Below are positions 1-23,967 of a stretch of 24,220 nt of DNA, piece after piece. The translations under genes were made by a program, and so were the position numbers. How positions within the stretch are numbered: position 1 is the first letter of the stretch; each line of letters opens with the position of its first letter. The stretch comes from a virus. The notes under the pieces are model-generated. The model saw nothing but the letters and a program-made list of their open reading frames with translations. It did not search any database and was not told where the DNA came from. The DNA is taken from the IMG/VR virus record IMGVR_UViG_3300047335_000127, positions 1 through 24,220 of that record, one strand, 5' to 3'.

Positions 1-40
1 TTTACACATATCCGAAACAAACATGGAAATCTGTACATGA
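1..40 (+). CDS. 3' tail of an upstream gene, possibly cas5f (csy2)
   Basis: Only the end of this reading frame lies in the window. Frame 2 is open from base 2 and stops at TGA 38-40, giving the C-terminal residues LHISETNMEICT. The stop overlaps the cas7f start as ATGA, the usual sign of translational coupling inside an operon. In type I-F systems the gene order is cas8f-cas5f-cas7f-cas6f, so cas5f is the expected neighbour, but twelve residues are too few to identify the family. The cas5f label is inference from gene order alone. Confidence 0.35.
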   Translation, partial: LHISETNMEICT

Positions 41-1158
41 AAAACAATCCTGCACTGATGGCGTCGAATTTGTCGTTCAATCGTTCGATTGCCCCTTCAC
101 CTGCGCTTCTGACGGCGTTTGATTCGGCCAATCCTTACGATCTTCAACCGGTTCTTCTGACCAATACGATCGGACGTGGGGCTTTCTTGAATAGTTACTT
201 GGATAAAAAGGGTGAAATCGCGGAAGATTTCGATCCATCGAAGCCGAATATCGTTGAAGGTGACATGGCCAATCTGCCACCGTCGTGTGATTCCTTTCGC
301 ATGGATTTCACGATCAATGTAACGGCTGGCAGTATCGAGCCGAATAGTTGTGAAATTCCGGCGCTTGATGCCCTCTTTCGTGACATCAGCAAGGCATACA
401 AGAAAGCCGGAGGCTATATCGAACTGTCTGAACGATTTGTTTGGCGACTGCTCAACGGTTCAATAATGTGGCGCAACTATACCGTGTCGTCTGACAAGAA
501 AGTGACGATTTCGTTTGAACAGAATTCACAAACCTACACGTTCGAAGCGCAATGCCGTAATCTGTCAAAGTTGCGGTATCCTGGCTTTGCTGCGATGCGC
601 GATGCAGTGGCCAATGTCGAACATTTGGTCACGACCTTTGCCGAAGCTCTGTCGGTCGATGGCGATCCCTTGATCCTTCGTGTGACTGCGACCGGCAAGG
701 TCGGCTACGGCAGTGAAGTTTATCCCTCTCAGGTGTTCAATGAAATTTCTGATAAGGACAAGAGGGATCGAAGCGTCAAGAAATTGGTTTCGCATGATCT
801 CGGCAATGGCCGGCGTCAGGGCAAGATCAACGCGACCAAAATCGGCAATGCAATCCGTCACATCGATGAATGGCATGGTTCGCCTGACGAAGATGCGACA
901 TCGATCGAAGCCTACGGTTTTGTGCAACGGAATTTGTCAGCTCTGCGACCAGTTCAAGGCGAAAACTTTTACAATCTGTTGTGGCAACAGAGCGATACGT
1001 TTCCATCTATCCTCGCTGAGTGTTCGACACGACAGAAGATTCCGGGTTCGATCCATTACTTCATGGCGATGCTGATCCGGGGCGGAGTCTTCGCTGCACC
1101 GTCTAACAGCAGCAAGCCAAAGACGAATGGTAAGCGTTCGAAGGAGGAGTTGTCCTAA
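37..1158 (+). CDS. cas7f: Type I-F Cascade backbone protein Cas7f (Csy3)
   Basis: Cas7f polymerises along the crRNA spacer and forms the backbone of the type I-F (Csy) surveillance complex. The 373-residue protein follows the Csy3 pattern from end to end: LSFNRSIAPSPALL near the N-terminus (family: VLAFERKLDPSDALM), then PNIVEGDMANLPPSCD, AGSIEPNSCEIPALDALFRD, GSIMWRNY, LRVTATGKVGYGSEVYPSQV, IGNAIRHIDEWHG, SIEAYG and the closing HYFMAMLIRGGVFAAP. It is slightly longer than typical Csy3 (about 340 residues) because of a Lys/Ser-rich C-terminal tail. The ATG overlaps the upstream stop (ATGA), and the cas6f start overlaps its own stop, so all three genes are coupled. There is no strong Shine-Dalgarno, which fits coupling. 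The carrier being a phage is inferred from the baseplate genes on the opposite strand. Confidence 0.93.
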   Translation: MKNNPALMASNLSFNRSIAPSPALLTAFDSANPYDLQPVLLTNTIGRGAFLNSYLDKKGEIAEDFDPSKPNIVEGDMANLPPSCDSFRMDFTINVTAGSIEPNSCEIPALDALFRDISKAYKKAGGYIELSERFVWRLLNGSIMWRNYTVSSDKKVTISFEQNSQTYTFEAQCRNLSKLRYPGFAAMRDAVANVEHLVTTFAEALSVDGDPLILRVTATGKVGYGSEVYPSQVFNEISDKDKRDRSVKKLVSHDLGNGRRQGKINATKIGNAIRHIDEWHGSPDEDATSIEAYGFVQRNLSALRPVQGENFYNLLWQQSDTFPSILAECSTRQKIPGSIHYFMAMLIRGGVFAAPSNSSKPKTNGKRSKEELS

Positions 1159-1826
1159 TGGATGATCTACATTTCACCACGATCTCCCTGCAACGCGACT
1201 TGTCTGGGATTCATGATGTTCATGCTCGACTGGTCAGTGTCGTACATGATTATAACACGTCGCCGTTTCTTGACCGGATTGCGATTGCCTTCCCACACTA
1301 TCGGGAAGGCATTAGCACCGATACGTCAGACGCTGAGGATTACGGTGAGGAACAACGTCTGATACGGCTCAGGAAGGGCTTTCTCGGACAATCAATTCGG
1401 TTGTTTGGTACGGCTGACGGACTTCGTGCGGTTCTTGATGTACCACAAGCGCAATTTCTCCATGAGACCCCGGATCTTGTTGTGACGGCTCCGACTCGCG
1501 TTCCCGATGTACAGCATTTTGGTTGTTATGTTGCGCATAAGGGATTGACGAATTTGACACCGTCACGGCTGCGTCGGGCGATTCGTCGTCAGGCATGGCT
1601 ACGCGATCCGAAATGTCTCACACCGGCACAACTCGAACAGCGACAGGCGGACAAGAATCAGCGTGCGAAGTCCACGCGTCTGCCCTATGTAGGTGTGCGG
1701 AGTCGGTCAAACGGTTCGATGTTTTCTATCTTCATCGAACGGCAAAATTCTCCCACACTGCGTTTTGCACCGAATTCGTTTGGATTCTCGTCTAAACATG
1801 AACTATGTTCGCTACCAGTATTTTGA
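1158..1826 (+). CDS. cas6f: CRISPR RNA endoribonuclease Cas6f (Csy4)
   Basis: Cas6f cuts pre-crRNA at the 3' base of the repeat hairpin and stays bound as the head of the Csy complex. The 222-residue protein aligns by eye with Pseudomonas Csy4: RIAIAFPHY (family RIGVSFPDL), the arginine helix SRLRRAIRRQAWLRD that grips the RNA stem groove, LPYVGVRSRSNGSMFSIFIE (family LPFVTLRSQSTGQHFRLFI), and a C-terminal aromatic ending LPVF (family VPWF). His30 sits where the catalytic His29 of Pseudomonas Csy4 lies, and the Ser-containing RSRS segment is kept, so the enzyme looks active. A strong AAGGAGG at 1141-1147 precedes the ATG, which overlaps the cas7f stop as TAATG. Its own stop TGA lies at the first base pairs of the following repeat array, so protein and probable substrate are adjacent. 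Confidence 0.9.
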   Translation: MDDLHFTTISLQRDLSGIHDVHARLVSVVHDYNTSPFLDRIAIAFPHYREGISTDTSDAEDYGEEQRLIRLRKGFLGQSIRLFGTADGLRAVLDVPQAQFLHETPDLVVTAPTRVPDVQHFGCYVAHKGLTNLTPSRLRRAIRRQAWLRDPKCLTPAQLEQRQADKNQRAKSTRLPYVGVRSRSNGSMFSIFIERQNSPTLRFAPNSFGFSSKHELCSLPVF

Positions 1827-2015
1827 GAACTGTTGAACAAACGGCTTAAAATACAGCTGGATGGTTGGGAAATTATTCCGCCGTGCAGGCGGCTTAAAAT
1901 AGGCAGAAGATTCAGAGTTCGAACACGTAATCCGCTGCACAGGCGGCTTAACATGCAAGATGCCGCAAATCACCTTCGAGCCCCAATATTATCCGCCGAA
2001 CAGGCGGATAATTAT
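1825..2015 (+). CRISPR. Type I-F-like CRISPR mini-array behind cas6f (4 hairpin repeats, irregular spacing)
   Basis: Four 28-base units fit the I-F repeat design of 5-base lead, 5-bp stem, 5-base loop and 8-base tail. R1 is 1825-1852 (stem CTGTT/AACGG, loop GAACA, tail CTTAAAAT). R2 is 1873-1900 (CCGCC/GGCGG, loop GTGCA, tail CTTAAAAT). R3 is 1927-1954 (CCGCT/GGCGG, loop GCACA, tail CTTAACAT). R4 is 1988-2015 (CCGCC/GGCGG, loop GAACA, tail ATAATTAT). The known E. coli I-F repeat has stem CTGCC/GGCAG, loop GTACA and tail CTTAGAAA, so R2 differs mainly by a compensated stem pair. R1 keeps pairing despite a different stem, with one G-T wobble. The interval lengths are 20, 26 and 33 bases instead of the usual constant 32, so this is degenerate or unusual. 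R4 extends to a perfect 10-bp inverted repeat and covers the stop codon of the convergent giant gene, so it may instead be a gene-end hairpin. Confidence 0.6.
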
Positions 2016-5000
2016 CCACCTGTTATGATACGATGCATCGGCTGTTGTTCACGATCACCCACTGCTGGACCGAGCGGCAAATCTTGCATGAAAATTTCGC
2101 GCCCGTTATAGACAGTCGTTCCAGCCTGATGTGACGCAGCAATCGTCAAGCCAACCACGATAAACGTTCCGGCCTCCGCTGTCAGCGTCACGCTCGTCGT
2201 TCCACTCACGGTGAAGTCAGACGATGCTATTCCAACATCATCAATCTCAACATCAACTGTTCCGCTCGCGGCGAACGTAAATGTTTGGGCTGATCCGGTC
2301 GCATAGGCGGATTGAGTCAAGCGTTTTGCGCCCATTGACGTTCCGCGTGTCGCACGTCTCAACGCCCCCAAGGTCACAACATTGTTCGTGCGTGAATAAG
2401 AGAAATATTCGATTCGTTCACCTTCAATATAGATCACCCCCGGACGATCTCTCGCTGTATCCGGAATCGGCAGCGGATTTTGATCCTGCATTTTCGTCGT
2501 GATCGCATTGACAAACAGATTGATCGTCAATGTGCTGTCAGACACACCCAAATCAGCGGCTAATGTGCCGGCCATATAGGGCGATAATCTGACATGTTCG
2601 AAGCTTCGATCAATCGAGTACAAGGCACTCAGATTCTGCAATCCATTGGTTGGCAAACCCATCAACTGTGCATTATCATATTGCTGTGAGTCATAGGCGA
2701 TGGCATCCCAACCAGCTGGCTGTTCAACCGGTGTCAAAGCCGGATACATGCGATTTGCAGCCGACGTGGTCGAACAATACAGCCATTCCATGATTTCACG
2801 CGCTGGTTGACCGGCAAACGCTGTCACAACCACATATCCAGAGCCTTCAGGATTGATCAGCTGAATGACATCCGAGGTAAAATACGCGCCGCCGCTGGAG
2901 AATTGTTGTGAGACGATAACATAATCATCTTCCTGAACCAGCGCATTTCCACCCATCCAAGCCAGACAATAATTTTTATTCCACGGCGTCGGCACAATCG
3001 GTTGCACTGTTGATCCGACTTGATAGCTCGACGTGCGAATGTCCATACACGATGCATTGCTGAATGTCGTAACTGTGATCACCGCATTCGATGATAGCGC
3101 GGTATTGATCGTCAGTGTCTGACCATTCGTCGATACAGTATAGTCAGGCGGACTCGTCGCAAAAATCATCGAAACTTTGATGTTGCTAGAGGCGAAATTC
3201 GGATCAAGCGCGATCAGCATATTGTTATACAGACAGAACTGTCCGCTGATCGCGGTCGAAGGTGCGGCCCCTGGCAAGACCAGTCCGAACGGATACGTGC
3301 TGCTCGTTGACGTGCTAGTCGCAATCGGAATTGCTGCCGTATACAGCACATTATTAACCCAAACCGTCACGGTCGTCGTCACATCCGGCATCAACGGCAG
3401 ATACATAAAGGCGGAGCCAACCGTCATACTACCGTAATAGGTGATCGGCGGCGTCAAACGTTGACCGTTCAATTCCACGATTGTGCCAGCATGGGGAGGC
3501 ACAGTCTGTGTGTCCGGAACTGCCAAAGTATAGATTTGTGACGCTGTATAACCAAACTGCTGCACGTTCATCATACAAGCCGTCGTAATGCCGTTCGCAT
3601 ACACCGCCAGAGCCACATCAGAGCCATTGCTAGGGGGTGATAGCAGCGTGACCGTTGTGCCGCTCACGCTGATCCCAGAGGTCGCTACAGGGGTGCCATT
3701 AACGACAGCCAAAACATTGCTGGCTGACGTTGGATTATTCAATGTCAGAGCATTGGTTCCATAGGTGAGGAAGTGCTGCTCGGTGACGGCTGAGGTACCG
3801 CCGAAGCTAAACACATGGATCACTGCGCGGCCAACGGCATTGCCGTTCACGGTACGGTTTAGGATGACGGATCGGTTGAGATAATCAACCGTGTAATCGG
3901 TGCCTAATACGGCGCGCAGACCGTCACAAAAAACCATTACCGCATTCATTGAATGGGGCAACATATCCATGAATAATGTCGTGGTTAGTCCTGACAACGT
4001 GCTTTGATTGAGATCAAAGACTTTGACAATTTGCGGACAGCCACCGGCCAAAGGTTGCGCCGTAACGTGCAAAAGAATATTATCATCGCTGGTGAGAACG
4101 ATACGTTCTTCCGGATGTTCCGCCGCATAATACGGCGGTCGTAAATCATAGCCACCGGGCTGTGACGGTTGCGCTGGATTGATACCGACCGCGATGGTCG
4201 GGGTCGGTGAAAATGTGCTGCCGTCATCCTCTAAACTCGGGGCCGGTGGCTGTGCCATCGGACTGCTGATCTGATTTTCTTTTTCATTCAGATTGAGCAA
4301 GGCAGTCAGATCAAGCGGTGCCATTCCGGTGGTTGGTTCGTAATAGGTCAGGATGCGATAGCCAGCCCCTGGATCGGCTTCACAATCATCCCAATCCGCA
4401 CTATCCCAAGCCAACATATCCCAGTTATTGGTTGTCCCAACCACGCGATCAAAGAGTATCGTCACTGTGAACGATCGCGTCGGCGGATTCGGCAGATTAT
4501 AATTTTGATACCAATCTGAATACGGATCTGTATCGCCTTGGAGAATCGTTATATCGGTTGCATTTGTCGGATCAAGCGGACGTTGAATGCCGGTGGTCGG
4601 ATCGGTATACACCGGATCATCAAAATCGGTGACGCGGAAATTGGCAGTATCGATGTCTGGCACGTATTGCGTGGTTGTTTCACGCAGTTTGACACGATAC
4701 GGTTTCACTTCATTGATATAATCCGTCACATCGCCGGTCTGATCGAGCGTCTGAATCGGCGTTTGTGTCATCGGCGCAGCAATACCGGCCAAGGTCATGA
4801 AGGAGGTTTTGAATGCCCAATCGACTTCATTTTGCTGCACATGGACAAAATTGACCACAGCAAACCATAATGTATTGATTTCTGATTCAAGTAACAGTCC
4901 ACTATAGCGCAGTGCATGGGTCAGGATGTATAATTCCCACGATCCGTCACGCTGACCAACATCGCTCAATGTCACAGCCGATGGGGATGTTGCGGTACTG

Positions 5001-8000
5001 ACAGCATGGACCGGTCGCAAAGGATCGTAAAAATTCGCGCTCAGCTGAACCGTTGCGTTGCCGATCGCCACCGTCTGCCAGACACCGTTGATAAACAATG
5101 TCCAGATAAAATTCTGGTCTTCTATCGGTAAATCAAGATTTAATACTGTAACGAGCAGATTGGTTGGACTACTGCCTTCAGCGGCATTGCGATCAGCCAC
5201 AGTATTATACGTAATAATCGGTGGATCAGTCGGATCATATCCGTTCGCGGTTAATGTTGCTGTATCGTACCAATCAGCATCTTCAATAAAATCAGCCGTA
5301 TTATAAGTTTGCACACGCCAGAGATTGAAGTATCCGCCTACGCCGGTCGGTTCATACCATTGATAGATCGCCCAGAAATTATCCGTATCATTTATGACTA
5401 ACACACGATCAAGATGATTCAGAGTACCGCTGGTCGCCAAAGTATTACGCGCGGCTTCATTGGCAACGCTATATTCGTAGGCAGTTTTCAGCGTGAAGAC
5501 AACATCGGCATTTTCCTGCAAGGCCGTTGCTGCTGGCAGATTATGATGCGCGAGAATAATCGACGCGGCGATGGCTGTATTGAATCGCCAGATGCTCCAT
5601 TGCGGAACCGAATTGGCAAAGCCGGACAGCAACACATCGATCGGCGTGTTGTTGCTTACTGCGTCTAAGAATCCCTGTGTGGCCAGCAGATCATTGCGCT
5701 GAGTCAGCGTAAACACTTCGTAGGACTGATCCCATTCATTGGCTGGCGGTGGCTCATACGGATAAGACGCATCCATTTGCGCCCAGACCAAATAGGCTAT
5801 TTTCTGCGTGTTCGCGGTAATAAAGTCATCGCTAGGATATCCGGTTGTCCGGTAGATTGATTGCAGCAGACTCGCACGATCGATCTTCAAAGCCGTTTGG
5901 GCTAAAATCGCGTTTACACTGCCGACGAAGGCGGCACGCGCATCGAGTAGGCCAGCACGTGAACTATCCGTTCCATGATAAGCCCACACGACAGTTCCGT
6001 CACTGATCGTATCACTATATCCGGTCGGACCTTGTCCGACCGTCAAGGTGACATTGAACGGAAACGTCAAGGTAAATTGCAAAACTGTAGCAAAAGGATT
6101 GGACGAGGTAATCGTTGCCTGACTCAACAATACCGGAGTGATACTCGCGCCTGACGACGTCACTGCGATGTAGGTGATATTCGCGGTATTCATCTGCAAC
6201 GCGATCGGACCGATTCCGGCGCTGTACAGTCCATTGTACGTAAAAACAAGTGTATTTGCAGAAGGCTGACTGCTATAGGTCGCCGTATCCTCATTACTCA
6301 GTACCAGATATGGCAACCCGGCTGATACCCCCTCGATGACACATTGGAAGGCCAAGCCTAAATTCGCGACTTGATCGCCATAGTAATACGTCACCCCAGG
6401 CTGCCACTGTGCAATATTCGCGGCACTGACCGTGAACATGCTCTGTCCATCATCAATGCCAATACTGCGCGACAAGGTCAGACTTGGATCTGGAATGGTT
6501 AGCAGACCATCCGTCGTGACCTGAAATCCTGCTAGACCGTCTCGGACTTTTCCCCAGATCATATCAGGCGGCAATGACGTTTCATCACCTGGTCGCATCA
6601 ACAGCCATTGATCATGATGACCGACAGAATCAACCGGCGCCAATCTGACTTTCATCACCGTGGTGGTTTCATCCAACGACGCAGAAACTCCGCTGACCAA
6701 CAGGGCATCTTGACTGATTGCACTCATCCAAGCGACATTCACTGCCGCTGGATTTTGAATGCCCAAGGCGATTTCAGACGCAGAAATATTCCTGAACGGA
6801 ACATTTGGTACGAGTGCGCTACCCGATACCCAGAAATAATATTTGACGACATCTTGTTTCTGTGACGGATCGTAAACCGTTCGTACTACCCAAGACGCAC
6901 CGCCCTGATAAACCGTTCCAGTATTGGTCGGATCAAGCGCATAGGTGATTGGATCTTCCAGACTTTCCGTCCATTCCCAGATATCAACCGAACTATTAGG
7001 AGCCACATTACCCCAATAGGCTAAACGATATTGCAATTCCGCCAAATCTCTAGCCGGCGTGATCCCCATTGTATCGGTGAATGTATCAAGGAATCGAACG
7101 GTCGATAAATCCCACCAGATACGTCCGATCTCGTTATCACCCCAAAGATTGGCATCCTGAGTGCCCTGTCCAGCATTATAACGCGCTGGATCAAAATCGG
7201 TTTTATAATCAATATCACGATCTGACAGATTACAGATCAGTCCAGCCAAGGGATCAATGACCACCACATCATCGATCACCGGCTGATTCAAGATCATCTG
7301 CTGATCCTGAATACTCGCTCCGGCACTATAGACCACCGTCTCGGCAATCGCCGTCGGATCAATGCGATGTGGCTGTAGTCGATACAACTGCCATCCGGCA
7401 CCGTTCCATTGCAATACGGCCCATTGATCCGGCGTATAGGCATCGATCCAGACAAGATCACCAACATTGAAGCTGATATTCGGATTGATTGTGCTGATAG
7501 AGCTAAATCGCACCGGTCGCAGAATGCGAACTTCCGGCGCGGTTGTCAGACTGTTCAAGAAACTATTGCCGAGTGTACCGACAGCCAACAAATCAACCGA
7601 ATTGGTCGCAGGATAGACAGCCGTGATGGTTTGAATACCTTGCAGATCAGGCGAACTATTCGTCGCTCCATCGATGACCAGATAATTGCCGATATCATCA
7701 CTATAAATCGTCATGGTTTGTTGGAAACTAACGCGTGATGTGGTCACAGTCGGATCTTCATTCGAAGTCGTCACAGCGAGAATTTGATTCGGTGTCGTAC
7801 CACCGACATCAAAACTTCTCAACACCGTATAAGGATGTTGTCCGGTGATCGGCAATTTCTGCGATTCGCGCTGATAGCAGCCAATGTCATAACCGGTTAA
7901 ATCGTTTCGAATATCGCCATTCAGATCGACTTCGGTTAAGAACTGTGGACTGGCGGATTTCAATGCCCATGAGCCTTGTCGCAAGCTGAAATCATATGGC

Positions 8001-11000
8001 GGATTGACAAATAATGGATCGGTGATCGAACCGATTCCTGGCAATACCGAACTAACGCCACCATAGCCAATTGTGTTGATATAGAAAGTATCCGTATTGG
8101 ATGACGATGTTGCTAACGGCACGTTCGCCAATGCAACCATGATATTGTTAGCAATATTAACGTCGATCGACGCATAGGCAGCGATTTCACCGAAAGCATA
8201 ATTTGTATTGGTCTGATTTTTGTAGGCAGTATTGAATGTTACATCGACATGCTGACTGTCATTGACTTTAATACCGACGCCGCCATTGTTATAAACAAGA
8301 TTGTTTTGAACCAATGTTCGACCGCTATAAGCAACACCGTCGGTATAGTCATTGAGATTGCCGGCAATAGTAATCCCACACCCATCGGTGAGATTTCCAC
8401 TTGTTGCATTCAGCACCAGATTGATGTTGCCGTAACAAACATTCTGGGTGATATAAAACTTATACGTGCTGATATTATCAGTTGCATGGCTATTCAGAAT
8501 ATTGATACCTGAGCCAGAATAAACCGAATATAAGCCGTTGCTATAGACTGTGCAGTTCTGAATCGTGATATAATCTGTCCAGTTGGCTAAAATGCCATTA
8601 TACGGAAAATCATGCACGAGACAATTCTGTATAGTAATATGATGCGGCAGTTTTGCTGATATCCCACGATCGATAACAATGCCAGACCCGTTATAGATGG
8701 CTGATGCTGCTGCAATACTGGCAGACAAAGCCTGCACTGCTGACAATGTCAGAGTTGCATTCCAACCGGCGATTTCAAAGCCATCGAAGATGATATAAGC
8801 AACCGCATTAAAATGCACGGCTGCGGTGGATTGCGATCCGAGAATCAGCGGTTTTTGACTGCCTGATGCTTTGAAAGTAATCGGAGCGGAGGGAATCCCT
8901 GAGCGAGTGATTTCAAGAATATTGGTACCCAAACCAGCAGCCGTATAGACACCGTAAGCGACATTGACAACATCGCCGGGATTACACAGATCATGCGCAT
9001 GCTGCAAGGTTTGCAATGGCGATGTCGAAGACAATCCGCTGTTATTATCATTGCCGAGTGTGGCATCAACATACCAGTTGACGCCTTCAAACAGCGGCAC
9101 ACTGTTATACACCCACAACAAAGTTCCGGTTGGTAGATTGAACGTATTCGGATCATACAAACCACCGACATCGGTAATATCAAAGCAGGTTCCATCGACT
9201 TCGCTCAATCGAACCGGGCCAGCGGTCGGCAATACGGCTGGCATATAATCATTACGTTCAATGAAGAACGCCGAAGGATTGATTGGTCTGTCGTACCAGC
9301 GCGTATCATTGCTGGTAAATTCGATCCAGTCATCGGGCGCACCGGCTTGCGTGATAAATCGTACGATCTGTGGATCGCCGCGAATTTCGCTTTGAATTAA
9401 CTGGAAAGTCACCAGCGGATCACGTGGGGCACCAAAGGTTGACAGGCGAAACGCCCATTCTTCCAAGAACAGCAATGTCGAATTGCCACTCGCTAAGGTC
9501 GAACGCGCCAGTGCTTGAAACACTCCTGGCGTGCCTTTCTCCTGAATCATCCCCTGATAGAATTCAAATTGATCAGACGGCGACAGCAAAAGATTGCTGA
9601 GATAATCACGCTCCTGCATGCCGACATTATGGCGTGCATAATCGCGCAAGGTTTGCACATCAGCCAGTTCAATATCGAACATTAAGCTGACATCGGTTGC
9701 AGCTTTCTCAAAACTTGATGCCAGAGTATTGCCGTTGATAATAAATCCGGGTGCATCAAGTCGTCCTGCCCAACCATAGGCGCGATTGCAGATCAACCTC
9801 AGTCGTTGAATGCGCAGATTATACAATGGCAGATAGATATTATCATCGAAGATCGTCACATTCGACGTGACTAAGGCATGTTCGTAATTACAAATCTCCA
9901 AGCGTGCTAGGAAAATATCAGCGTTATTGGCCGCGATGGTAATCTGGCCATCTAATCGCGAGACAATTGCCTGTCTTTGACTGATCGGGGCACCCGACCG
10001 ATCGATCAGTCCGTAAAATCCCGTGACATTATCTTCGACATTGAGAATCGTGCCTTGCGGCGCATTGAATTGCAATTCCGCTTGTCCGGGCGAAAGCGCG
10101 ACGAAATTACCCGGTGCCCATTGCACTTGTGCCCAAGTGAGGAATTCTTCGACCGACAAACTCCAATCGAGAATCTGATTGTTGTCATTTTGATTGACAA
10201 ACAGCCAGCCACGACTCACCAAATAACGCTGCCATCCGAGTAAAAAATCAGCCACATCCTGATAGGTAAAATATTCTGTTCCATAGGGCACCGAGATCGT
10301 CGTGTTCAACCCTTGGGCATAGGTGACAACACGTGGGGCGCGAATCATCGCCGTCGATAAATCCGATCGCGGCGTCCAGAATGTGGTTTCGAAATTACTG
10401 CCCGACGTATGACTGCGGATACATTGATAGACCGAGTTTTGATAGGCGGCAAGAATACCAGTCGGATAATAGGTGCCTGGCTGCCATGTCACGATCGCTG
10501 GCTCACTGGCCGAGGCAAGTGAGATAATGCCTCTAGGACCGTTTACATTCGGCGGAATGATGGTGAAATTTGGATTGCGCCCGTCAAAGCCAACCACGCT
10601 CCAAGAGTGACCAGTCCATTGGACGATGACGCCTGAATAAACCTCGCTGTCAACTGCCGGTGATTGATAGAGGATGCATTTCACATCTTCGGCTGGCAAT
10701 AATCCAAATGAATCGGCTACCAGCTGAACTGTATCGGCGGACGTAAATCCAGCCATTTGATGAATTAATGCCACCCCCAATCCCCGCACAGCGGTGCCAA
10801 GAGAGGAACTATTTTGTCCATTCGAAATCAAATAATCCGACAACCATTGCGACAAGCCAATCTTCGGTTGTGCAGCCGGTGGAGACAGTGTTGGATTTAA
10901 TTCAGCATGCATGTATTGCGTTGCATTACGCGGACGCAGCAACGTACTGCGTTGCACCCATTGACCATTGATATAGCCAATACCTAGAGCGTCCCAGCAT

Positions 11001-14000
11001 TCTTCGACAAAACGCGCCGGTTTCATCAAAAAACTCGCGCGCGCTAAAGCAAAGCGATAGGATGGACTATGCTGCCATAACGTCTCGGCTGGACCGCCAT
11101 CACCGGACATCCAATCACGTTGCGCAGTATCCAAGGTCACAGCTGACAAGACAATGCCGATCTCAATCGGATTTCGCAGATTGCCGGATAGATCAGACGG
11201 AACCAGATCAAGCAAACCAGGACGTGCATAGCGCGGATCGGTTCCTGCACGCGGTCCAGATGCAATCAATCCCGCTTCCAAATCGATCCAAAGTTGGCTG
11301 TTGCTCAACGCATAGGGTGCATTGCCATAGCGTCCGCTCCACCATGTTGGCTCTGAATAAAACCCCAGCATTTCCCATGGACGCAGATGCGGCGCGTCCG
11401 TGTCATAATAGAAGCGATAAATTGCTCGCCAATTTCCCGGCAAACTATTTCCAGCGATATCCGTCAATCCGCGATAGTTCCACGTAAACGGATCAGTCGC
11501 ATCAAACGTGTTATTTGTGCGATAATCGACGCGATTGATCTGCGCCCATAACTCAAACATCGGCGCTAGAATAGAATTGACCTCTTGCCAGCTATAACCC
11601 TGATAAGGCGTGTAAAATCGATTACCTATCCATTGCTGGATATTGAAGACCGTGCCAGCTTCCGGATCAATCGGGGGCGGCGTTGCGGTAAATTGAAAAT
11701 AGCCATCATTGACCCCCACCTCTTGGATAAAAATGTACCAACGGCCTGAAGCCGCGTCTTGCGCATAAACCTGACCATCGTAGTACTGCATCGCACTCGT
11801 ATCGCCACCAGTATCGATCTGCGTGCCGTTTTCAATCACATAGCCAGCCGGTGAAATCGTGAAAATATTTCCATTTCCATCAAGAAATGAACCGTTACCA
11901 GGAGTAATCCGATTATTCACCGTTGTCGGCGGCTGCGGTAGATTGTTATAGATCAGCGTCTCTAATGCCAGCAGCACATTATCACGCCAATCGCCAAACA
12001 GCAGCGAGACACTGCCGTCATGACCCAGCAACATATCCTGATCAGTGCCGTATGTGTTATCGACTATAATCGCTGGAATCGCGGATGGCTGAATACATAA
12101 TCCGGTCGGCGTAGGCGGAATGAAATATTGTCCGCCGCCCATGCCGCTGAGTGCAAATGGAAACGAATTATTGTGACCGATTTTCAGTGCGGCTAATGTG
12201 GTCGATAGCCAGAGGGATGGATCAGCCGAAGCATCTAGAACGCCGCGATTCACCTGATCGATCAGCTTGCGCACAAATTTATTACGAAAACGACTATATT
12301 CTACTTCCGCGTACAGAATCGCCTTCGGCACATCAAACTCACCGGTTGTCAATAACATAGTTTTCAACAGCGGACAATGATGTTGCAATATGCCAGTGCC
12401 GAGTGAAAGATCACGTGCTGTATCGCGATAATTCGTATCGCCTGCGGCAGTACCCACATAGCCAATCTGATTGGTAAGCAGTGATTGGAAATGATTAACC
12501 CACGTCGATCGTGAAATCTGATCGACTTCGTCGTAATCCGGATTGGCTTGCAGATTAACCGGTATATTATAGATCAGGTTGGTATAACCCTGAATCGTTG
12601 TATTAGCAGCCTGCCGCCAGAACGGAAAATAGTTTGTCGATGTTGTTGACGTAGCATAACACGTCAACCCGACGATCGCTGTACTTTTTGGCGGACTACC
12701 GGTCTGATAGGTGGCATTGACATTGGCTGAATCGTTACTGAAAACAATATAACCGTTGTTGTCATAAACCAGTTGACGCAGCAGTACCGAATCAGTTGTG
12801 CCGCTGCCAAGCGCATATCCGAAAATACGATTGCCGACAAACGTACTATTCGGATACCGAGTTGTATCATTCAGCGGATTATAGTCCAAATCATACAGCA
12901 TGAATAACGGATCAGCGTTTTCACTCCATGTCTGTGATCCGTAGAGAATAATGTCACGGATGAATTCGATAATTGGACGCGCAGCTTGTCGCGTGGGAAA
13001 GGTCTCACCCGACCATGCAAAACTATCCTGATGCACCCAGCTATTGCGCACCGACCAAGGATTGCCATCCAAGGACGATCGATCAATCGTGACATATTGC
13101 GCTGCCAAGCCACGAACCATGTTATCCAACGGGGTCAGCCGGATACTCTGTCCAACTCCGTCCACCATGTAGATCGAATCATTGGTCGCATCCCAGCCGA
13201 TCGACGTATTGATATCACTGGCCCCTGACAACCAGCCGACAGGCACCGCATCATGATCCCATGGCTGCGTATCCCAAGCATCCGATAGATGATAGGTGTC
13301 AACAATATTGATCCGCATGCCTGAAGATAAAACATCAACTCCTGCCGTGTTGATATCTGAGACGATGGCCTGACTGAATCCACTGGTCAAAACCGAAGCT
13401 AAATCTGGCGTTCGGCAAACCATGACGATGACTTGATCAGTCGCTGTACTTAAAGCCGGCGCCGATGGCAGGATAATCGAGTTGCCATCTTGTGAAAGAC
13501 TCGTATCCGTGACGACGATATTATTGACATAAGCGGTTGGTTGTTCTGCATACGACGGCACGCAAAGAATCGATTCCGGCAATGCAAACGTTGTTGTAAC
13601 CCCATCACCAGCATAGAGCAGATACGGCGTATCTAAGGTCAGTGTCGGCAAATCTTCGGTCGGCAGAACGGTGGCCGGTCCGATGAAATCACTCGGTGGA
13701 AAATTGGCAAAAATTGATGAACCGAAATTGATCGTGACCTGATCTTGATTAGACGTTCCAGCCCAAACCAGACACGGCGAACCATTGCTGAGCAGAGTTG
13801 TGATATCATAGCCGCCTGATGCTGTGATCGGATTATCGATCGTCGCATCCCAATCACCGCCATTGACGCGAAACCAGACTTTTTTGCTAAATGTGCTCCA
13901 AGCCATCCCGACAACATTACTGCCCGCCGTGGCATTGAATGTATCAAGTCCAGACGCCAGCGCTAACGTGCCCTGATCATTGTAGATATTGCCATTGCTC

Positions 14001-14749
14001 GACAAAATAATCGCATTATTGCCGCTTTGCTGTCCCGGCAGACCAAAAGTCTGTAGACCCGTAACTCCGTTAATTGTATCGATGGTATTGGCAATACCGA
14101 CATATTGCAATCCAGCCCCGATCGTATTGATGGTAAATTCAACGTAAAATAAACCGGTTGAAGCGATGGGTGTCGAACGAATCGCGGCTGGCTGATTATT
14201 CGTCGTCGCCTGACAGGTTGCTGTCAGACTGCTATTCGATAAGGAAATCGCCCCATTTTTATCGGTTTTGTTCCAGATATAGGTAGTCTGGTTCGACAAA
14301 TCGACATCACCAAACCAATAATACTGCCGGTAGTTGACCAACATATCGATGTTAATCGGCGGTGCCCACGTATAATAATCGGTCTCAAACATGCGACTCT
14401 GATCAGACGTAATGCCGCCATTTGTATTGAAATAAGCAACGAAATCTGGATAGCTCAGAGCGAAATCAATCTGCGATGCATCGGTAGCATCATACGATAC
14501 CATTCCAGGTTCTAACTGATAGAACTGCCGTGATTGACTGGGCTCAGCCACATAGAAATCCGTCGCTCCGGCAATGGCATGACCAATATAACCATTGATC
14601 GGTTCTGAAGTTCCAGGTTGGAATAATTCGTCAACCGTCGCACCAAAAAATGCCGTCAAATCCGCAGTCTGATTGGTTGCTGGTAATTGACTGATCAATC
14701 GCCGCTTGGGACCGAGCGGAGAGATCGATGGCGTGAGCGTCGTTGACAT
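2012..14749 (-). CDS. Giant virion structural protein (4,245 aa), tail/baseplate associated, with SPRY-like and beta-helix domains
   Basis: This is the largest gene and directly follows gp6 in the leftward baseplate operon, the place of gp7 in T4, though it is about four times longer than T4 gp7. Several conserved-looking blocks match what I recall of very large structural proteins of T4-like cyanophages and jumbo phages: WVHQDSF plus ARPIIEF (about residues 570-600), YRFYYDTDAPHLRPWEMLGF then PTWWSGRYGNAPY (about 1105-1150), FALARASFLMKPARF (about 1230), WEWTESLEDP (about 2590), YINEVKPYRVKLRE (about 3345). A SPRY-like beta-sandwich lies at about 165-355 (FYVEFTINTIGAGLQYVGIA, then VWFRVNGGDW). 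A right-handed beta-helix lies at about 1885-2290, opening YVDATLGNDNNSG and rich in ITIQNCTVYSN-type coils. Two WQPGTYYPTG/WQPGVTYYYG patches (about 1425 and 2785) resemble carbohydrate-binding modules. The C-terminus holds ERIEYFSYS and LRRATRGTS. No signal peptide is seen and the Shine-Dalgarno is weak. Exact role (wedge, fibre or adhesin) is not decided. Confidence 0.88.
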   Translation of the reverse strand: MSTTLTPSISPLGPKRRLISQLPATNQTADLTAFFGATVDELFQPGTSEPINGYIGHAIAGATDFYVAEPSQSRQFYQLEPGMVSYDATDASQIDFALSYPDFVAYFNTNGGITSDQSRMFETDYYTWAPPINIDMLVNYRQYYWFGDVDLSNQTTYIWNKTDKNGAISLSNSSLTATCQATTNNQPAAIRSTPIASTGLFYVEFTINTIGAGLQYVGIANTIDTINGVTGLQTFGLPGQQSGNNAIILSSNGNIYNDQGTLALASGLDTFNATAGSNVVGMAWSTFSKKVWFRVNGGDWDATIDNPITASGGYDITTLLSNGSPCLVWAGTSNQDQVTINFGSSIFANFPPSDFIGPATVLPTEDLPTLTLDTPYLLYAGDGVTTTFALPESILCVPSYAEQPTAYVNNIVVTDTSLSQDGNSIILPSAPALSTATDQVIVMVCRTPDLASVLTSGFSQAIVSDINTAGVDVLSSGMRINIVDTYHLSDAWDTQPWDHDAVPVGWLSGASDINTSIGWDATNDSIYMVDGVGQSIRLTPLDNMVRGLAAQYVTIDRSSLDGNPWSVRNSWVHQDSFAWSGETFPTRQAARPIIEFIRDIILYGSQTWSENADPLFMLYDLDYNPLNDTTRYPNSTFVGNRIFGYALGSGTTDSVLLRQLVYDNNGYIVFSNDSANVNATYQTGSPPKSTAIVGLTCYATSTTSTNYFPFWRQAANTTIQGYTNLIYNIPVNLQANPDYDEVDQISRSTWVNHFQSLLTNQIGYVGTAAGDTNYRDTARDLSLGTGILQHHCPLLKTMLLTTGEFDVPKAILYAEVEYSRFRNKFVRKLIDQVNRGVLDASADPSLWLSTTLAALKIGHNNSFPFALSGMGGGQYFIPPTPTGLCIQPSAIPAIIVDNTYGTDQDMLLGHDGSVSLLFGDWRDNVLLALETLIYNNLPQPPTTVNNRITPGNGSFLDGNGNIFTISPAGYVIENGTQIDTGGDTSAMQYYDGQVYAQDAASGRWYIFIQEVGVNDGYFQFTATPPPIDPEAGTVFNIQQWIGNRFYTPYQGYSWQEVNSILAPMFELWAQINRVDYRTNNTFDATDPFTWNYRGLTDIAGNSLPGNWRAIYRFYYDTDAPHLRPWEMLGFYSEPTWWSGRYGNAPYALSNSQLWIDLEAGLIASGPRAGTDPRYARPGLLDLVPSDLSGNLRNPIEIGIVLSAVTLDTAQRDWMSGDGGPAETLWQHSPSYRFALARASFLMKPARFVEECWDALGIGYINGQWVQRSTLLRPRNATQYMHAELNPTLSPPAAQPKIGLSQWLSDYLISNGQNSSSLGTAVRGLGVALIHQMAGFTSADTVQLVADSFGLLPAEDVKCILYQSPAVDSEVYSGVIVQWTGHSWSVVGFDGRNPNFTIIPPNVNGPRGIISLASASEPAIVTWQPGTYYPTGILAAYQNSVYQCIRSHTSGSNFETTFWTPRSDLSTAMIRAPRVVTYAQGLNTTISVPYGTEYFTYQDVADFLLGWQRYLVSRGWLFVNQNDNNQILDWSLSVEEFLTWAQVQWAPGNFVALSPGQAELQFNAPQGTILNVEDNVTGFYGLIDRSGAPISQRQAIVSRLDGQITIAANNADIFLARLEICNYEHALVTSNVTIFDDNIYLPLYNLRIQRLRLICNRAYGWAGRLDAPGFIINGNTLASSFEKAATDVSLMFDIELADVQTLRDYARHNVGMQERDYLSNLLLSPSDQFEFYQGMIQEKGTPGVFQALARSTLASGNSTLLFLEEWAFRLSTFGAPRDPLVTFQLIQSEIRGDPQIVRFITQAGAPDDWIEFTSNDTRWYDRPINPSAFFIERNDYMPAVLPTAGPVRLSEVDGTCFDITDVGGLYDPNTFNLPTGTLLWVYNSVPLFEGVNWYVDATLGNDNNSGLSSTSPLQTLQHAHDLCNPGDVVNVAYGVYTAAGLGTNILEITRSGIPSAPITFKASGSQKPLILGSQSTAAVHFNAVAYIIFDGFEIAGWNATLTLSAVQALSASIAAASAIYNGSGIVIDRGISAKLPHHITIQNCLVHDFPYNGILANWTDYITIQNCTVYSNGLYSVYSGSGINILNSHATDNISTYKFYITQNVCYGNINLVLNATSGNLTDGCGITIAGNLNDYTDGVAYSGRTLVQNNLVYNNGGVGIKVNDSQHVDVTFNTAYKNQTNTNYAFGEIAAYASIDVNIANNIMVALANVPLATSSSNTDTFYINTIGYGGVSSVLPGIGSITDPLFVNPPYDFSLRQGSWALKSASPQFLTEVDLNGDIRNDLTGYDIGCYQRESQKLPITGQHPYTVLRSFDVGGTTPNQILAVTTSNEDPTVTTSRVSFQQTMTIYSDDIGNYLVIDGATNSSPDLQGIQTITAVYPATNSVDLLAVGTLGNSFLNSLTTAPEVRILRPVRFSSISTINPNISFNVGDLVWIDAYTPDQWAVLQWNGAGWQLYRLQPHRIDPTAIAETVVYSAGASIQDQQMILNQPVIDDVVVIDPLAGLICNLSDRDIDYKTDFDPARYNAGQGTQDANLWGDNEIGRIWWDLSTVRFLDTFTDTMGITPARDLAELQYRLAYWGNVAPNSSVDIWEWTESLEDPITYALDPTNTGTVYQGGASWVVRTVYDPSQKQDVVKYYFWVSGSALVPNVPFRNISASEIALGIQNPAAVNVAWMSAISQDALLVSGVSASLDETTTVMKVRLAPVDSVGHHDQWLLMRPGDETSLPPDMIWGKVRDGLAGFQVTTDGLLTIPDPSLTLSRSIGIDDGQSMFTVSAANIAQWQPGVTYYYGDQVANLGLAFQCVIEGVSAGLPYLVLSNEDTATYSSQPSANTLVFTYNGLYSAGIGPIALQMNTANITYIAVTSSGASITPVLLSQATITSSNPFATVLQFTLTFPFNVTLTVGQGPTGYSDTISDGTVVWAYHGTDSSRAGLLDARAAFVGSVNAILAQTALKIDRASLLQSIYRTTGYPSDDFITANTQKIAYLVWAQMDASYPYEPPPANEWDQSYEVFTLTQRNDLLATQGFLDAVSNNTPIDVLLSGFANSVPQWSIWRFNTAIAASIILAHHNLPAATALQENADVVFTLKTAYEYSVANEAARNTLATSGTLNHLDRVLVINDTDNFWAIYQWYEPTGVGGYFNLWRVQTYNTADFIEDADWYDTATLTANGYDPTDPPIITYNTVADRNAAEGSSPTNLLVTVLNLDLPIEDQNFIWTLFINGVWQTVAIGNATVQLSANFYDPLRPVHAVSTATSPSAVTLSDVGQRDGSWELYILTHALRYSGLLLESEINTLWFAVVNFVHVQQNEVDWAFKTSFMTLAGIAAPMTQTPIQTLDQTGDVTDYINEVKPYRVKLRETTTQYVPDIDTANFRVTDFDDPVYTDPTTGIQRPLDPTNATDITILQGDTDPYSDWYQNYNLPNPPTRSFTVTILFDRVVGTTNNWDMLAWDSADWDDCEADPGAGYRILTYYEPTTGMAPLDLTALLNLNEKENQISSPMAQPPAPSLEDDGSTFSPTPTIAVGINPAQPSQPGGYDLRPPYYAAEHPEERIVLTSDDNILLHVTAQPLAGGCPQIVKVFDLNQSTLSGLTTTLFMDMLPHSMNAVMVFCDGLRAVLGTDYTVDYLNRSVILNRTVNGNAVGRAVIHVFSFGGTSAVTEQHFLTYGTNALTLNNPTSASNVLAVVNGTPVATSGISVSGTTVTLLSPPSNGSDVALAVYANGITTACMMNVQQFGYTASQIYTLAVPDTQTVPPHAGTIVELNGQRLTPPITYYGSMTVGSAFMYLPLMPDVTTTVTVWVNNVLYTAAIPIATSTSTSSTYPFGLVLPGAAPSTAISGQFCLYNNMLIALDPNFASSNIKVSMIFATSPPDYTVSTNGQTLTINTALSSNAVITVTTFSNASCMDIRTSSYQVGSTVQPIVPTPWNKNYCLAWMGGNALVQEDDYVIVSQQFSSGGAYFTSDVIQLINPEGSGYVVVTAFAGQPAREIMEWLYCSTTSAANRMYPALTPVEQPAGWDAIAYDSQQYDNAQLMGLPTNGLQNLSALYSIDRSFEHVRLSPYMAGTLAADLGVSDSTLTINLFVNAITTKMQDQNPLPIPDTARDRPGVIYIEGERIEYFSYSRTNNVVTLGALRRATRGTSMGAKRLTQSAYATGSAQTFTFAASGTVDVEIDDVGIASSDFTVSGTTSVTLTAEAGTFIVVGLTIAASHQAGTTVYNGREIFMQDLPLGPAVGDREQQPMHRIITGG

Positions 14750-14986: not shown

Positions 14987-15336
14987 AAGTTCTAGACGAT
15001 GACCACTGAGAAGCAATTAACACGGATTTTTCTTTTTCTGATTCGATTCGTCTGAAATCAATCAAACACGAGTCAAACACGTCATCGTCTAGAACTTTCA
15101 AATCTCAAGTTCTAGCCTCTGACCAGATCGAGTCAGTTATGCACGAATTTCCTTTTTCTGATTCGGATTCACTTCATCACGACAAATGACAGTGAAGTGG
15201 TCATCGCCTAGAACTGTCAAAATCTCAAGTTCTAGCCTCTGACCACTTAAGGCTAATTTCAGTCGTTTTTGGTTTTTCGTTTTTGAATTGCTGGGAAGTC
15301 AGCAAATTGATCTCAAGGGGTCAGAGGCTAGAACTT
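14987..15336. repeat. Three tandem 120-base dyad units in the gp6-giant gene gap
   Basis: Units A 14987-15097, B 15107-15216 and C 15227-15336 start exactly 120 bases apart and align without gaps through their first 59 bases. Each opens with AAGTTCTAG and closes with CTAGAACT, so each unit is one long hairpin. Unit A has perfect 17-bp arms (14987-15003 with 15081-15097) whose inner part reads ACGATGAC. Unit C has perfect 18-bp arms (15227-15244 with 15319-15336) whose inner part is CCTCTGACC. Unit B has one arm of each kind and pairs as 8 bp plus 6 bp around a 4x4 internal loop. Neighbouring arms can also pair across the 9-11 base joints. A shared inner tract CTTTTTCTGATTCG is present in A and B and partly in C. 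No open frame, promoter or tRNA was recognised. Unit C ends one base before the gp6 stop codon. Confidence 0.85.
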
Positions 15337-18779: not shown

Positions 18780-19883
18780 TTACTTTATCTCCGGAAGAAT
18801 TTCAATATTATTCTGCATTTTTTCTTGTTTTCTTTTCTCAAATGCATCATGTTGCGCTTGTGTCCAGGGTTTGCCTTTTTTGGCATGAACCGGTTTTATT
18901 TTTGGCGCATTATCATCAATGCCAGCGGCTTTTCGTCTTTCTGCATGACGTGCTTTCAGCGTTGCACTGATTTTAGCTCTGTGTTCCGGAGTGCGAATGA
19001 CACCGATTTGCTTACCTTTGCCTGATTCACTGAGTTTCCGTCTCGTTTCTTCACTCGGTGATGCGCGCTTTTTTCCACGCTGTGCCGCACCGATCTTCTC
19101 TCGATGTTCGGGACTTTTCGGCACGCCTTTGTGCACTCGTGACATCGTTGCACTGACGATAGCCTTTTGTTCGTCACTGATTGTAAAGCCTCGGCGTATA
19201 TGTTCCGGTTTTTGCTTTCTGCCGCGAGTTGCCGCAGCTTGGTTTTCTACATGTTGACGACTCTTTGGTTTGCCTTTAAGTGCTTTGGAAATGCCAATAC
19301 CGATTTTCTTTTTTGTTTCTTCGCTGTGAGAGAATCCAGAACGGATATGTTCTGGTTTCATTTTCCTACCAACATTGATCTCAGATAAAAGTTTCTTTGT
19401 TTCATCGGTATGTTTCCGCCCTTTTCTGCTTTCGCTCATTGCGTTTCGCACTTCCATGGAATGAACAGTGCCGGTAAGAGCTTCACTAATTTTCTGTTTC
19501 GTTTCTTGCGTATGAATATAGCCACAGGTACCTTCACCACCATCCGTCAAATTTGTTAGAGTTCCCAATCCTTTGTCGCGACGGCCATAATGCGCAATCA
19601 ATCTAATTTCTTCGTCGAGTGCTTCTCGTTCTGTTGAATATTCTCCAACAATGCGGAGTATTGGTTGTAGTCCTGCGTCGATAATCTTACGAAGTAAACG
19701 AGCTTTGAATGGATTTTTTACTTGTTTGATGGTTACATTTCGCGCATCACAGAGATGATTGTTAAAACGATAATGGTCGTTGAAACGATTCCAATCTCCG
19801 AGATTGCCTTTACCGACATATATACAATCGCCATTACGGGGATCGTATATTTCGTACACGATGTGAATTACGTCTGAATTCAT
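18780..19883 (-). CDS. GIY-YIG homing endonuclease with multiple NUMOD3 repeats
   Basis: This is a free-standing homing endonuclease of the Seg/I-TevI type, which cuts alleles lacking it and spreads by repair. From the chosen start the 367-residue protein has VYEIYDP then IYVGKG as the GIY-YIG core (residues 9-26), an Arg in NRFNDHYR, the Glu in DEEIRLIAHYGR and NLTDGGEGTCG closing the nuclease domain (to about 120). After that come about seven NUMOD3-like DNA-binding motifs, for example HTQETKQKISEALTG, HTDETKKLLSE, SPEHREKIGAAQRGKK and TPEHRAKISATLKAR, which is a long tail for this family. The open frame extends upstream to 20063, but that stretch is antisense-like shadow of gp25. ATG 19881-19883 overlaps the gp25 stop as ATGA and begins right at the nuclease domain, so it is preferred. 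The gene looks AT-richer than its neighbours, fitting later arrival. Confidence 0.9.
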   Translation of the reverse strand: MNSDVIHIVYEIYDPRNGDCIYVGKGNLGDWNRFNDHYRFNNHLCDARNVTIKQVKNPFKARLLRKIIDAGLQPILRIVGEYSTEREALDEEIRLIAHYGRRDKGLGTLTNLTDGGEGTCGYIHTQETKQKISEALTGTVHSMEVRNAMSESRKGRKHTDETKKLLSEINVGRKMKPEHIRSGFSHSEETKKKIGIGISKALKGKPKSRQHVENQAAATRGRKQKPEHIRRGFTISDEQKAIVSATMSRVHKGVPKSPEHREKIGAAQRGKKRASPSEETRRKLSESGKGKQIGVIRTPEHRAKISATLKARHAERRKAAGIDDNAPKIKPVHAKKGKPWTQAQHDAFEKRKQEKMQNNIEILPEIK

Positions 19884-20394: not shown

Positions 20395-20553
20395 ATGATC
20401 GATAAGAAGTTTGATATAATTCTGATCGTAATTGCGATTGCTTTGTTCATTTGCATCCAAATGCTCGGTACTGGATGGCGATACGATCGAGAACTAAAGT
20501 GTGAGCAAATGCTGAAAGAAAATCCCACGTTAGACCGCCAGAACGGCGGATAA
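20395..20553 (+). CDS. Small single-pass membrane protein, 52 aa, unknown function
   Basis: The ATG follows GGAGAAAG at a good distance (20384-20391). The protein begins MIDKKF, has one membrane helix FDIILIVIAIALFICIQMLG (about residues 6-25), and then a charged tail with GWRYDRELKCEQMLKENP, ending RQNGG. The positive N-terminus suggests an N-in orientation. The last codons are encoded by the stem of a repeat-like hairpin (20535-20549), and the stop TAA follows it directly. I do not recognise the family; small inner-membrane proteins near phage structural operons are sometimes lysis or host-takeover factors, but nothing here shows that. Confidence 0.55.
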   Translation: MIDKKFDIILIVIAIALFICIQMLGTGWRYDRELKCEQMLKENPTLDRQNGG

Positions 20554-20669
20554 AGAAAAAGGCTACCGTGGTTTGTTCTCAATTTTAAGCCGCCTGCACG
20601 GCGGATAACTCGCGGACACTTGCACGCTGAGATGCTGTGAGATTTTAAGCCGCCTGCGCGGCGGATATA
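20527..20669 (-). CRISPR. Second type I-F-like CRISPR mini-array, two clean repeats plus a degenerate end repeat
   Basis: Read leftward, repeat 1 is 20669-20642 (lead TATAT, stem CCGCC/GGCGG, loop GCGCA, tail CTTAAAAT). Repeat 2 is 20609-20582 (lead GTTAT, same stem and tail, loop GTGCA). The two are exactly 60 bases apart, leaving a 32-base spacer at 20610-20641, the standard I-F geometry. A 27-base interval (20555-20581) precedes a degenerate third hairpin at 20554-20527, which keeps the stem but has loop GTTCT and tail TCTAACGT. Degenerate repeats at the leader-distal end are normal for CRISPR arrays. The stem, loop and tail of repeat 2 are identical to R2 beside cas6f over 23 bases. A promoter-like pair and about 60 bases of leader lie upstream. 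The spacer origin is unknown. The third hairpin also serves as the end of the facing 52-aa gene. Confidence 0.62.
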
Positions 20670-20738
20670 AGTCCGGCGTTTGAACTTCACGACATTTCAA
20701 CGAGCAATTGAAAATCGAAGGGGTTTCGGATGATTTTC

Positions 20739-20766
20739 ATCATAGCATATTTTTCCCTCTGAACAA
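20739..20766 (-). promoter_or_regulatory. Sigma-70-like promoter reading into the second mini-array
   Basis: On the minus strand TTGTTC (20766-20761) and TATGAT (20744-20739) are 16 bases apart, and the -10 has the extended TGC before it. Transcription would start near 20732 and cross about 60 bases of AT-rich leader before the first repeat at 20669. It lies directly after the stop of the 44-aa gene on the same strand, so the array need not depend on read-through. Confidence 0.45.
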
Positions 20767-20769
20767 GAA

Positions 20770-20904
20770 TTATCCGCCATACGATCCGGTCTGTTGTGAT
20801 CGTGTGGCGGATGCGTCATCAGCAATTGTGCTTTCTGCGTTTGCGGAAATGATCGCGGCTGTTAGCCCTGCGAGTATAACGGCGACAAAGATTAAAATTT
20901 TCAT
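20770..20904 (-). CDS. Tiny secreted protein with signal peptide, 44 aa
   Basis: The ATG at 20904 follows AGGA by 8 bases; another ATG six bases upstream is too close to that site. The product begins MKILIFVAVILAGLTAAIIS, a textbook signal peptide, with a likely cleavage after SANA, leaving a mature peptide of about 21 residues (ESTIADDASATRSQQTGSYG and one more Gly). The facing plus-strand frame over the same bases has no comparable features, so the minus strand is preferred. The last 14 codons encode a 15-bp hairpin and the stop follows it. Function is unknown; a periplasmic or membrane-inserted phage peptide is the most that can be said. Confidence 0.6.
   Translation of the reverse strand: MKILIFVAVILAGLTAAIISANAESTIADDASATRSQQTGSYGG
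20772..20812. repeat. 15-bp inverted repeat at the end of the 44-aa gene
   Basis: Arms ATCCGCCATACGATC (20772-20786) and GATCGTGTGGCGGAT (20798-20812) pair over 15 bp with one G-T wobble and an 11-base loop. Like other gene ends here, the 3' arm on the coding strand reads GGCGGAT and runs straight into the stop codon. It lacks a T-run, so it is not a standard intrinsic terminator; it may protect the 3' end of the mRNA. Confidence 0.6.
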
Positions 20905-23630: not shown

Positions 23631-23658
23631 GATTTTATCCGCCTGCACAGCGGATTAG
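23631..23658 (-). repeat. Solitary type I-F-like repeat hairpin behind the 77-aa gene
   Basis: On the minus strand the unit has lead CTAAT, stem CCGCT/GGCGG, loop GTGCA and tail ATAAAATC, matching R3 of the cas-linked array in lead and stem and the common loop of the clean repeats. It starts three bases after the stop of the 77-aa membrane protein. No second repeat occurs one spacer length away on either side, so this is a single element: an orphan repeat or a gene-end processing hairpin. Confidence 0.52.
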
Positions 23659-23660
23659 GT

Positions 23661-23894
23661 TCACCATAATCCAAACCATATGCCGATACCGTGTATAATC
23701 GCTATGGGAAACACCAACGCTCCGGCGATGAGGAATCCCCATAGTCCTAATTTGAGACAGACAATCACATGTGTTATCCAAGCGGCAATCATTGCAAAAA
23801 ATATAAACAGGATGCCAAGAAATGATACCAATCCAACTTTCTTGACAATTCTTTGCTGATGGAGCGTTTTTTGAGATGGTGTTCTATAATTCAT
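23661..23894 (-). CDS. Small membrane protein with two helices, 77 aa
   Basis: From the ATG at 23894 the product begins MNYRTPSQKTLHQQRIVKKV, a basic cytoplasmic lead, and then has two membrane helices: VGLVSFLGILFIFFAMIAAW and LGLWGFLIAGALVFPIAIIH, ending GIGIWFGLW. A GTG at 23918 would add eight residues but has no ribosome site, while AGAAAG lies about 10 bases before the ATG. The helices are joined by a short loop (ITHVIVCLK). I do not recognise the family. A solitary I-F-like hairpin follows the stop. Confidence 0.65.
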   Translation of the reverse strand: MNYRTPSQKTLHQQRIVKKVGLVSFLGILFIFFAMIAAWITHVIVCLKLGLWGFLIAGALVFPIAIIHGIGIWFGLW

Positions 23895-23967
23895 TGTTTG
23901 ATTCTTTCTTGATATCACTGAATATGCCGAAATGTCCGTAGCGTGTCGTCATAATGATCGTGACGAT

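Follow-up and report, generated by a model that had tools for sequence, protein, structure and literature searches.

The virus DNA analyzed here carries a two-guide type I-F CRISPR mini-array, referred to as array B, in a giant phage that has its own Cascade genes. The finding stands, and the locus contains somewhat more than was first described. The window, i.e., the whole stretch of DNA that was analyzed, is the complete IMG/VR record IMGVR_UViG_3300047335_000127, a linear fragment of 24,220 bases. The array B locus is a variant of phage-borne CRISPR-Cas, and of most interest here are the short guides, whose lengths follow the Cas7f register. The explanation that we favor, at somewhat better than even confidence, is that array B is a guide locus belonging to a phage-borne type I-F effector in which spacer addition has ceased; the phage probably uses array B to bind or cut chosen DNA.

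Array B consists of three I-F repeats on the minus strand (20527–20669), approximately 18 kb from cas6f, which confirms the distant second mini-array reported in an earlier note on this DNA. The leader-proximal repeat, B_R1 (TATATCCGCCGCGCAGGCGGCTTAAAAT; 20642–20669), has an intact stem and matches B_R2 at 25/28 positions, the remaining 3/28 being different. B_R1 is followed by the spacer B_S1 (CTCACAGCATCTCAGCGTGCAAGTGTCCGCGA; 20610–20641), which has the exact I-F length of 32 nt, and by B_R2 (GTTATCCGCCGTGCAGGCGGCTTAAAAT; 20582–20609), the best-preserved repeat. The stretch 20582–20605 in B_R2 is identical, in inverted orientation, to 1877–1900 adjoining cas6f at 24/24 bases. With the Rfam CRISPR-DR4 (type I-F) model, B_R2 scores 29 bits, and both B_R1 and A_R1 in array A score 21 bits, all below the gathering score of 35. 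Beyond B_R2 lies a 27-nt interval, B_S2 (20555–20581), a second potential guide flanked by two intact Cas6f stems, and then the terminal repeat B_R3 (20527–20554; 21/28 matches). The earlier description of B_R3 as decayed holds for its loop and 3′ handle, which are degenerate, but not for its 5-bp stem, which is intact.

The terminal repeats of both arrays, A_R3 and B_R3, have kept the stem and lost the 3′ handle. In type I arrays, the last stem is required to end the preceding crRNA and the last handle is dispensable, which provides a rationale for this pattern. With the stem of B_R3 retained, and no more than its loop and 3′ handle gone, array B encodes two potential guides, of 32 and 27 nt, instead of the one spacer first ascribed to it.

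On the leader side, the approximately 70 nt at 20670–20738 (minus strand) constitute a putative leader, as suggested by position only. A candidate promoter with an extended −10 element, TGCTATGAT (20747–20739, minus strand), is located 70 nt upstream of B_R1, and six extended −10 sites are present on the whole minus strand of the window. No −35 element of array B reaches the threshold of our promoter scan, a 9-of-12 scan that also missed TGCTATGAT. The previously proposed promoter is thus plausible: its extended −10 is real, but it is weak. The stability of the folded array B transcript is not above that of shuffled sequences (z −0.77). Directly upstream of the promoter is a long hairpin, ATCCGCCATACGATC...GATCGTGTGGCGGAT (20773–20813), the base of which resembles the repeat stem; it is perhaps a terminator or an expanded repeat. 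On the other side, positions 20395–20553 on the plus strand contain a 52-aa ORF that includes a hydrophobic stretch and is accompanied by the Shine-Dalgarno-like GGAGAAAG; the last codons of this ORF are the antisense of B_R3.

Eight repeat copies are present in the window: the three in array B, four in array A (1825–2015, plus strand), and one solitary copy. Array A begins with the divergent repeat A_R0 (1825–1852; 18/28 matches), which starts at the cas6f stop, and continues with the 20-nt interval A_S0 (1853–1872), A_R1 (1873–1900; 25/28), the 26-nt interval A_S1 (1901–1926), A_R2 (1927–1954; 23/28), the 33-nt spacer A_S2 (1955–1987), and the terminal repeat A_R3 (1988–2015; 21/28), which folds with an extended symmetric stem and has lost its handle. 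The solitary repeat-like unit (23631–23658, minus strand; 21/28, intact stem) lies 2 nt past the stop of an ORF at 23661–23918. Both A_R0 and the solitary unit are additional to the copies in the earlier note. Matches of this kind are rare by chance: the window contains seven 28-mers that agree with the repeat at ≥21/28 positions, vs 0.0 per window in 200 Markov shuffles, and nine that do so at ≥18/28, vs 0.6 per window.

The repeats have the 28-nt length and 5-bp stem that characterize type I-F effectors. This Cas6f stem is intact in 8/8 copies, and all forty stem cells are standard pairs, despite up to 10/28 substitutions per repeat. In A_R0, the stem is kept through two compensatory pair changes and one wobble. 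Covariation in the stem is modest for the eight window copies alone, as 26/500 shuffles scored as high. For 20 related repeats, the score exceeded all 500 shuffles; this set includes the phage contigs L016 and L017 as well as bacterial arrays, and it leans to structure, since most of its members were retrieved with a pattern that fixes parts of the stem.

The cas genes are at the left end of the window. Cas7f (Csy3; 373 aa; 37–1158, plus strand) matches PF09615 at 2e-53 and TIGR02566 at 165.9 bits (cut-off 157.55), and Cas6f (Csy4; 222 aa; 1158–1826, plus strand) matches PF09618 at 3.7e-13 and TIGR02563 at 37.4 (cut-off 36.25). Both are full-length, open, and above the curated cut-offs. Moreover, the positions of the catalytic His and Ser are conserved in an alignment of Cas6f with other Cas6f proteins. 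Upstream of cas7f, and overlapping it in an ATGA, are the last 12 codons of another gene (2–40, plus strand). Its product ends in ...NMEICT, which resembles the Csy2 C-termini NLYICK and NLYLCQQ; judged by this weak and short likeness, the fragment is a probable C-terminus of Cas5f (Csy2). The contig begins 36 nt before cas7f, so that Cas8f, Cas3, and Cas1, if present, are located off the contig. The best PDB sequence match of Cas7f is 7u5d, which we take to come from an I-F3 CAST. No close relatives of this Cas7f turned up in IMG/VR, and no donor was identified, the best relative among 398 Pseudomonadota genomes having 36% identity. Many of the distant Cas7f matches are positioned at prophage edges. 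More complete I-F loci, in which a Cas3-type helicase accompanies long and regular arrays, are L039 and L045. The divergence of the window repeats argues against recent spacer acquisition.

The gene content identifies the window as a piece of a giant T4-like phage. Among isolates, the baseplate wedge protein is closest to Sinorhizobium phage Phosso and Agrobacterium phage Atu_ph07 (~38%), and the other phage genes include gp25, a NUMOD3 homing endonuclease, and NusG. The NUMOD3-type endonuclease gene (18780–19718, minus strand) is flanked by gp25 and the baseplate wedge gene, and a related phage (L053) has a homing endonuclease in the same position between these two genes. The largest gene (2012–14749, minus strand) encodes 4,245 aa; relatives of its N-terminal parts occur in other phages of the group, and it has no NCBIfam match. 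The region that separates this gene from the baseplate gene has a cluster of diverged repeats, both direct and inverted, around AAGTTCTAG (14987–15336), with three direct copies of 59 nt at a spacing of 120 nt plus inverted copies. Immediately upstream of the phage nusG, 22507–22581 (minus strand) matches the mmgR/suhB small RNA (RF00519; 54 bits vs gathering 41), presumably an alphaproteobacterial family. The phage perhaps carries a copied host regulatory RNA here, and no such RNA was found in the loci of six related phages.

A contaminating contig end carrying the cas genes was considered and rejected, because near-identical repeats adjoin cas6f and phage core genes (NusG and baseplate). In addition, the GC content of the cas genes (0.50 vs 0.475) is close to the composition of the phage. 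A search of 30 records from related phages (up to 424 kb) yielded no csy3, and no repeat with an intact stem was found in ~80 related loci (1.24 Mb), nearly all of which have gp25 adjoining the baseplate gene; the three 20/28 repeat matches in these loci all lack the stem. Most of the related records are fragments, and this absence is suggestive rather than proof. The cas genes and repeats therefore both seem to be accessory, and they co-occur here, and the repeat common to both arrays ties cas genes and arrays together; the cas genes and both arrays seem to have been acquired by this phage. The earlier note had held that a spacer fully conserved in all related phages, with neither a target nor an RNA product, would speak against a working guide; the array B locus is missing from every relative examined.

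The same note had also described array B as aimed at one important target and had proposed a search with its 32-base spacer and 27-base interval. For B_S1 (32 nt), no target emerged from the window, 50,697 records of phages and 72,556 of plasmids, IMG/VR (at 20 seed positions, with each sixth base free), or 84,980 GTDB genomes scanned with a CC PAM; in the window no match rose above the shuffled level, and in phages and plasmids there was none of weight. Likewise, B_S2 (27 nt) gave no target in phages, plasmids, and IMG/VR, and A_S2 (33 nt) gave none in IMG/VR or phages. These pattern scans demand exact seed positions, and diverged targets would escape them. The idea of one important target is thus unsupported, given two encoded guides and a 32-nt spacer without a target in any collection searched. 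Partial seed matches within the window are at chance level, and self-targeting or cas autoregulation could therefore not be shown, the cas promoter being off the contig. Nor do the window spacers match the loci of related phages, and none of the spacers of bacterial arrays with similar repeats (L127 and L128), or of L041 and L019, matches the window. The closest repeats in genomes share 24–25/28 positions with the window repeat.

The five intervals are 20, 26, 27, 32, and 33 nt long. Only B_S1 (32 nt) and A_S2 (33 nt) have the ~32-nt length of a standard spacer, which the intervals of 20, 26, and 27 nt do not reach. In a type I-F1 system, N Cas7f subunits are accommodated by a spacer of 6N−4 nt, i.e., 20, 26, or 32 nt, and guides truncated to 26 and 20 nt form R-loops without triggering Cas2/3 (PMC7296934). 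All five intervals lie at 6N−4 or one nucleotide above it. Of the irregular intervals in the degenerate arrays of L016, L017, and L127 (30, 25, 41, 25, 20, 19, and 22 nt), 1/7 is in this register, vs 3/3 of the shortened intervals here (one-sided p 4/120 ~0.03, calculated by hand), a comparison that is post hoc, based on a small sample, and to be read as a lead. The three short guides (20, 26, and 27 nt) would bind without cutting, being too short for Cas2/3 triggering as measured in that I-F1 system. Their unusual length suggests that some may silence genes instead of cutting. A further extension, which is conceivable although doubtful, is that graded Cascades with 4, 5, and 6 Cas7f subunits would form on the 20-, 26/27-, and 32/33-nt guides. 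In this scenario, one effector would silence with short guides and license cutting with full-length guides, the guides being supplied from different places in the genome; this would amount to a naturally occurring, programmed CRISPRi in a virus.

For the guide locus that we favor, the following model can be considered. Transcription of array B would run leftwards from a weak promoter of its own, and the phage Cas6f would cut the RNA at the three intact hairpins, resulting in two crRNAs with 32- and 27-nt guides. The crRNAs would load into a Cascade composed of the phage Cas7f, Cas6f, and probably Cas5f, plus a Cas8f encoded beyond the contig end. Array A, adjoining cas6f, would give three more guides, of 20, 26, and 33 nt. 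The 32–33-nt guides could direct cleavage if Cas2/3 is present, and the 20–27-nt guides would bind target DNA without licensing cleavage, leading to repression. The part of the earlier note that saw a working guide is supported insofar as the geometry, the intact Cas6f stems, and a Cas6f with conserved His and Ser on the same contig point to a guide-producing locus; its single-spacer part falls away.

The strongest rival, particularly for the solitary copy, is a Racr-like RNA anti-CRISPR, in which the repeat copies would be decoys that bind the Cas6f and Cas7f of a host type I-F system and form dead complexes. RacrIF1 acts by binding Cas6f and Cas7f (PMC10651486), the copy at 23631–23658 resembles a solitary repeat unit, and similar degenerate clusters occur on phage contigs without recognizable cas genes (L016 and L017). 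However, such decoys would titrate the Cas6f and Cas7f of the phage as well, the 8-nt handles and the exact 32-nt interval of array B would be superfluous for a decoy, and no I-F-bearing host was identified. Overall, we consider the decoy reading unlikely. That the arrays are non-working, eroding remnants of a once-complete phage CRISPR-Cas system would fit the divergent repeats, the irregular intervals, and the lack of targets for B_S1. This explanation is rather improbable, since full-length open Cas7f and Cas6f, eight paired stems out of eight in spite of the substitutions, and a cas composition near that of the phage are not what erosion would predict.

The position of several repeats exactly at gene ends keeps a role for Cas6f in mRNA processing in view. 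Here, gene-end hairpins would be cut to separate or trim phage transcripts, and no guides would be made. The start of A_R0 is at the cas6f stop, another stop precedes the solitary unit by 2 nt, and A_R3 and B_R3 overlap the stops of the convergent 4,245-aa gene and 52-aa ORF, respectively. Nevertheless, this role would not predict repeats in pairs that retain their CTTAAAAT handles, or an interval of 32 nt, and we regard it as very unlikely. Collectively, these considerations leave the guide locus of a phage-borne effector as the best explanation.

Several known systems share features with this locus. The type I-F systems of Vibrio phages ICP1 and 1.161 likewise combine phage csy3 (and csy4) with arrays of I-F repeats; they are additionally equipped with adaptation genes and a Cas3-type helicase. 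In 1.161, the array repeats are near-uniform and the spacers 32–33 nt long, whereas the repeats here are divergent, the intervals vary, and the second array is 18 kb off. Compact arrays are also found in jumbo phages, almost all without acquisition genes, and the parts of that survey available to us describe no I-F variant with unlinked mini-arrays or short guides (PMC7162821). Viral CRISPR mini-arrays likewise have one or two spacers in a viral genome, but their repeats are identical to those of the host and most of their spacers match related viruses (PMC11656645); the present phage encodes cas genes of its own, and the spacers searched gave no target. The delocalized crRNAs of I-F3 CASTs also place a guide away from the main array and have divergent repeats. 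In the present case, no transposition gene was found among the window proteins scanned (the window being a fragment), and no target was found.

RacrIF1 and the solitary repeat units are likewise phage-encoded I-F repeat hairpins, and one solitary copy is present here; they were described without cas association, in contrast to the arrays and cas genes of this phage (PMC10651486). A solitary unit is a single repeat with no array and no cas gene nearby, and array B, with three repeats and cas7f and cas6f on the same contig, falls outside this class. Clusters of two to four degenerate I-F repeats at irregular intervals were observed on two phage contigs without a recognizable cas gene: L016 (minus strand; 587–614, 529–556, 476–503, 407–434, 1171–1198, and 1118–1145) and L017 (minus strand; 93–120, 141–168, and 188–215). 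SRUFinder drops clustered repeats (PMC10651486), so the clustered degenerate class may be unsurveyed, and clustered degenerate repeats merit a search of their own. To date, the best-described I-F components borne by phages have been of two types, complete adaptive loci (ICP1) and lone decoy repeats (Racr). A giant phage that encodes Cascade components, shows no sign of recent acquisition, keeps its guides at unlinked loci, and has guide lengths in Cas7f steps would illustrate how CRISPR can serve a virus in nature as a fixed regulator.
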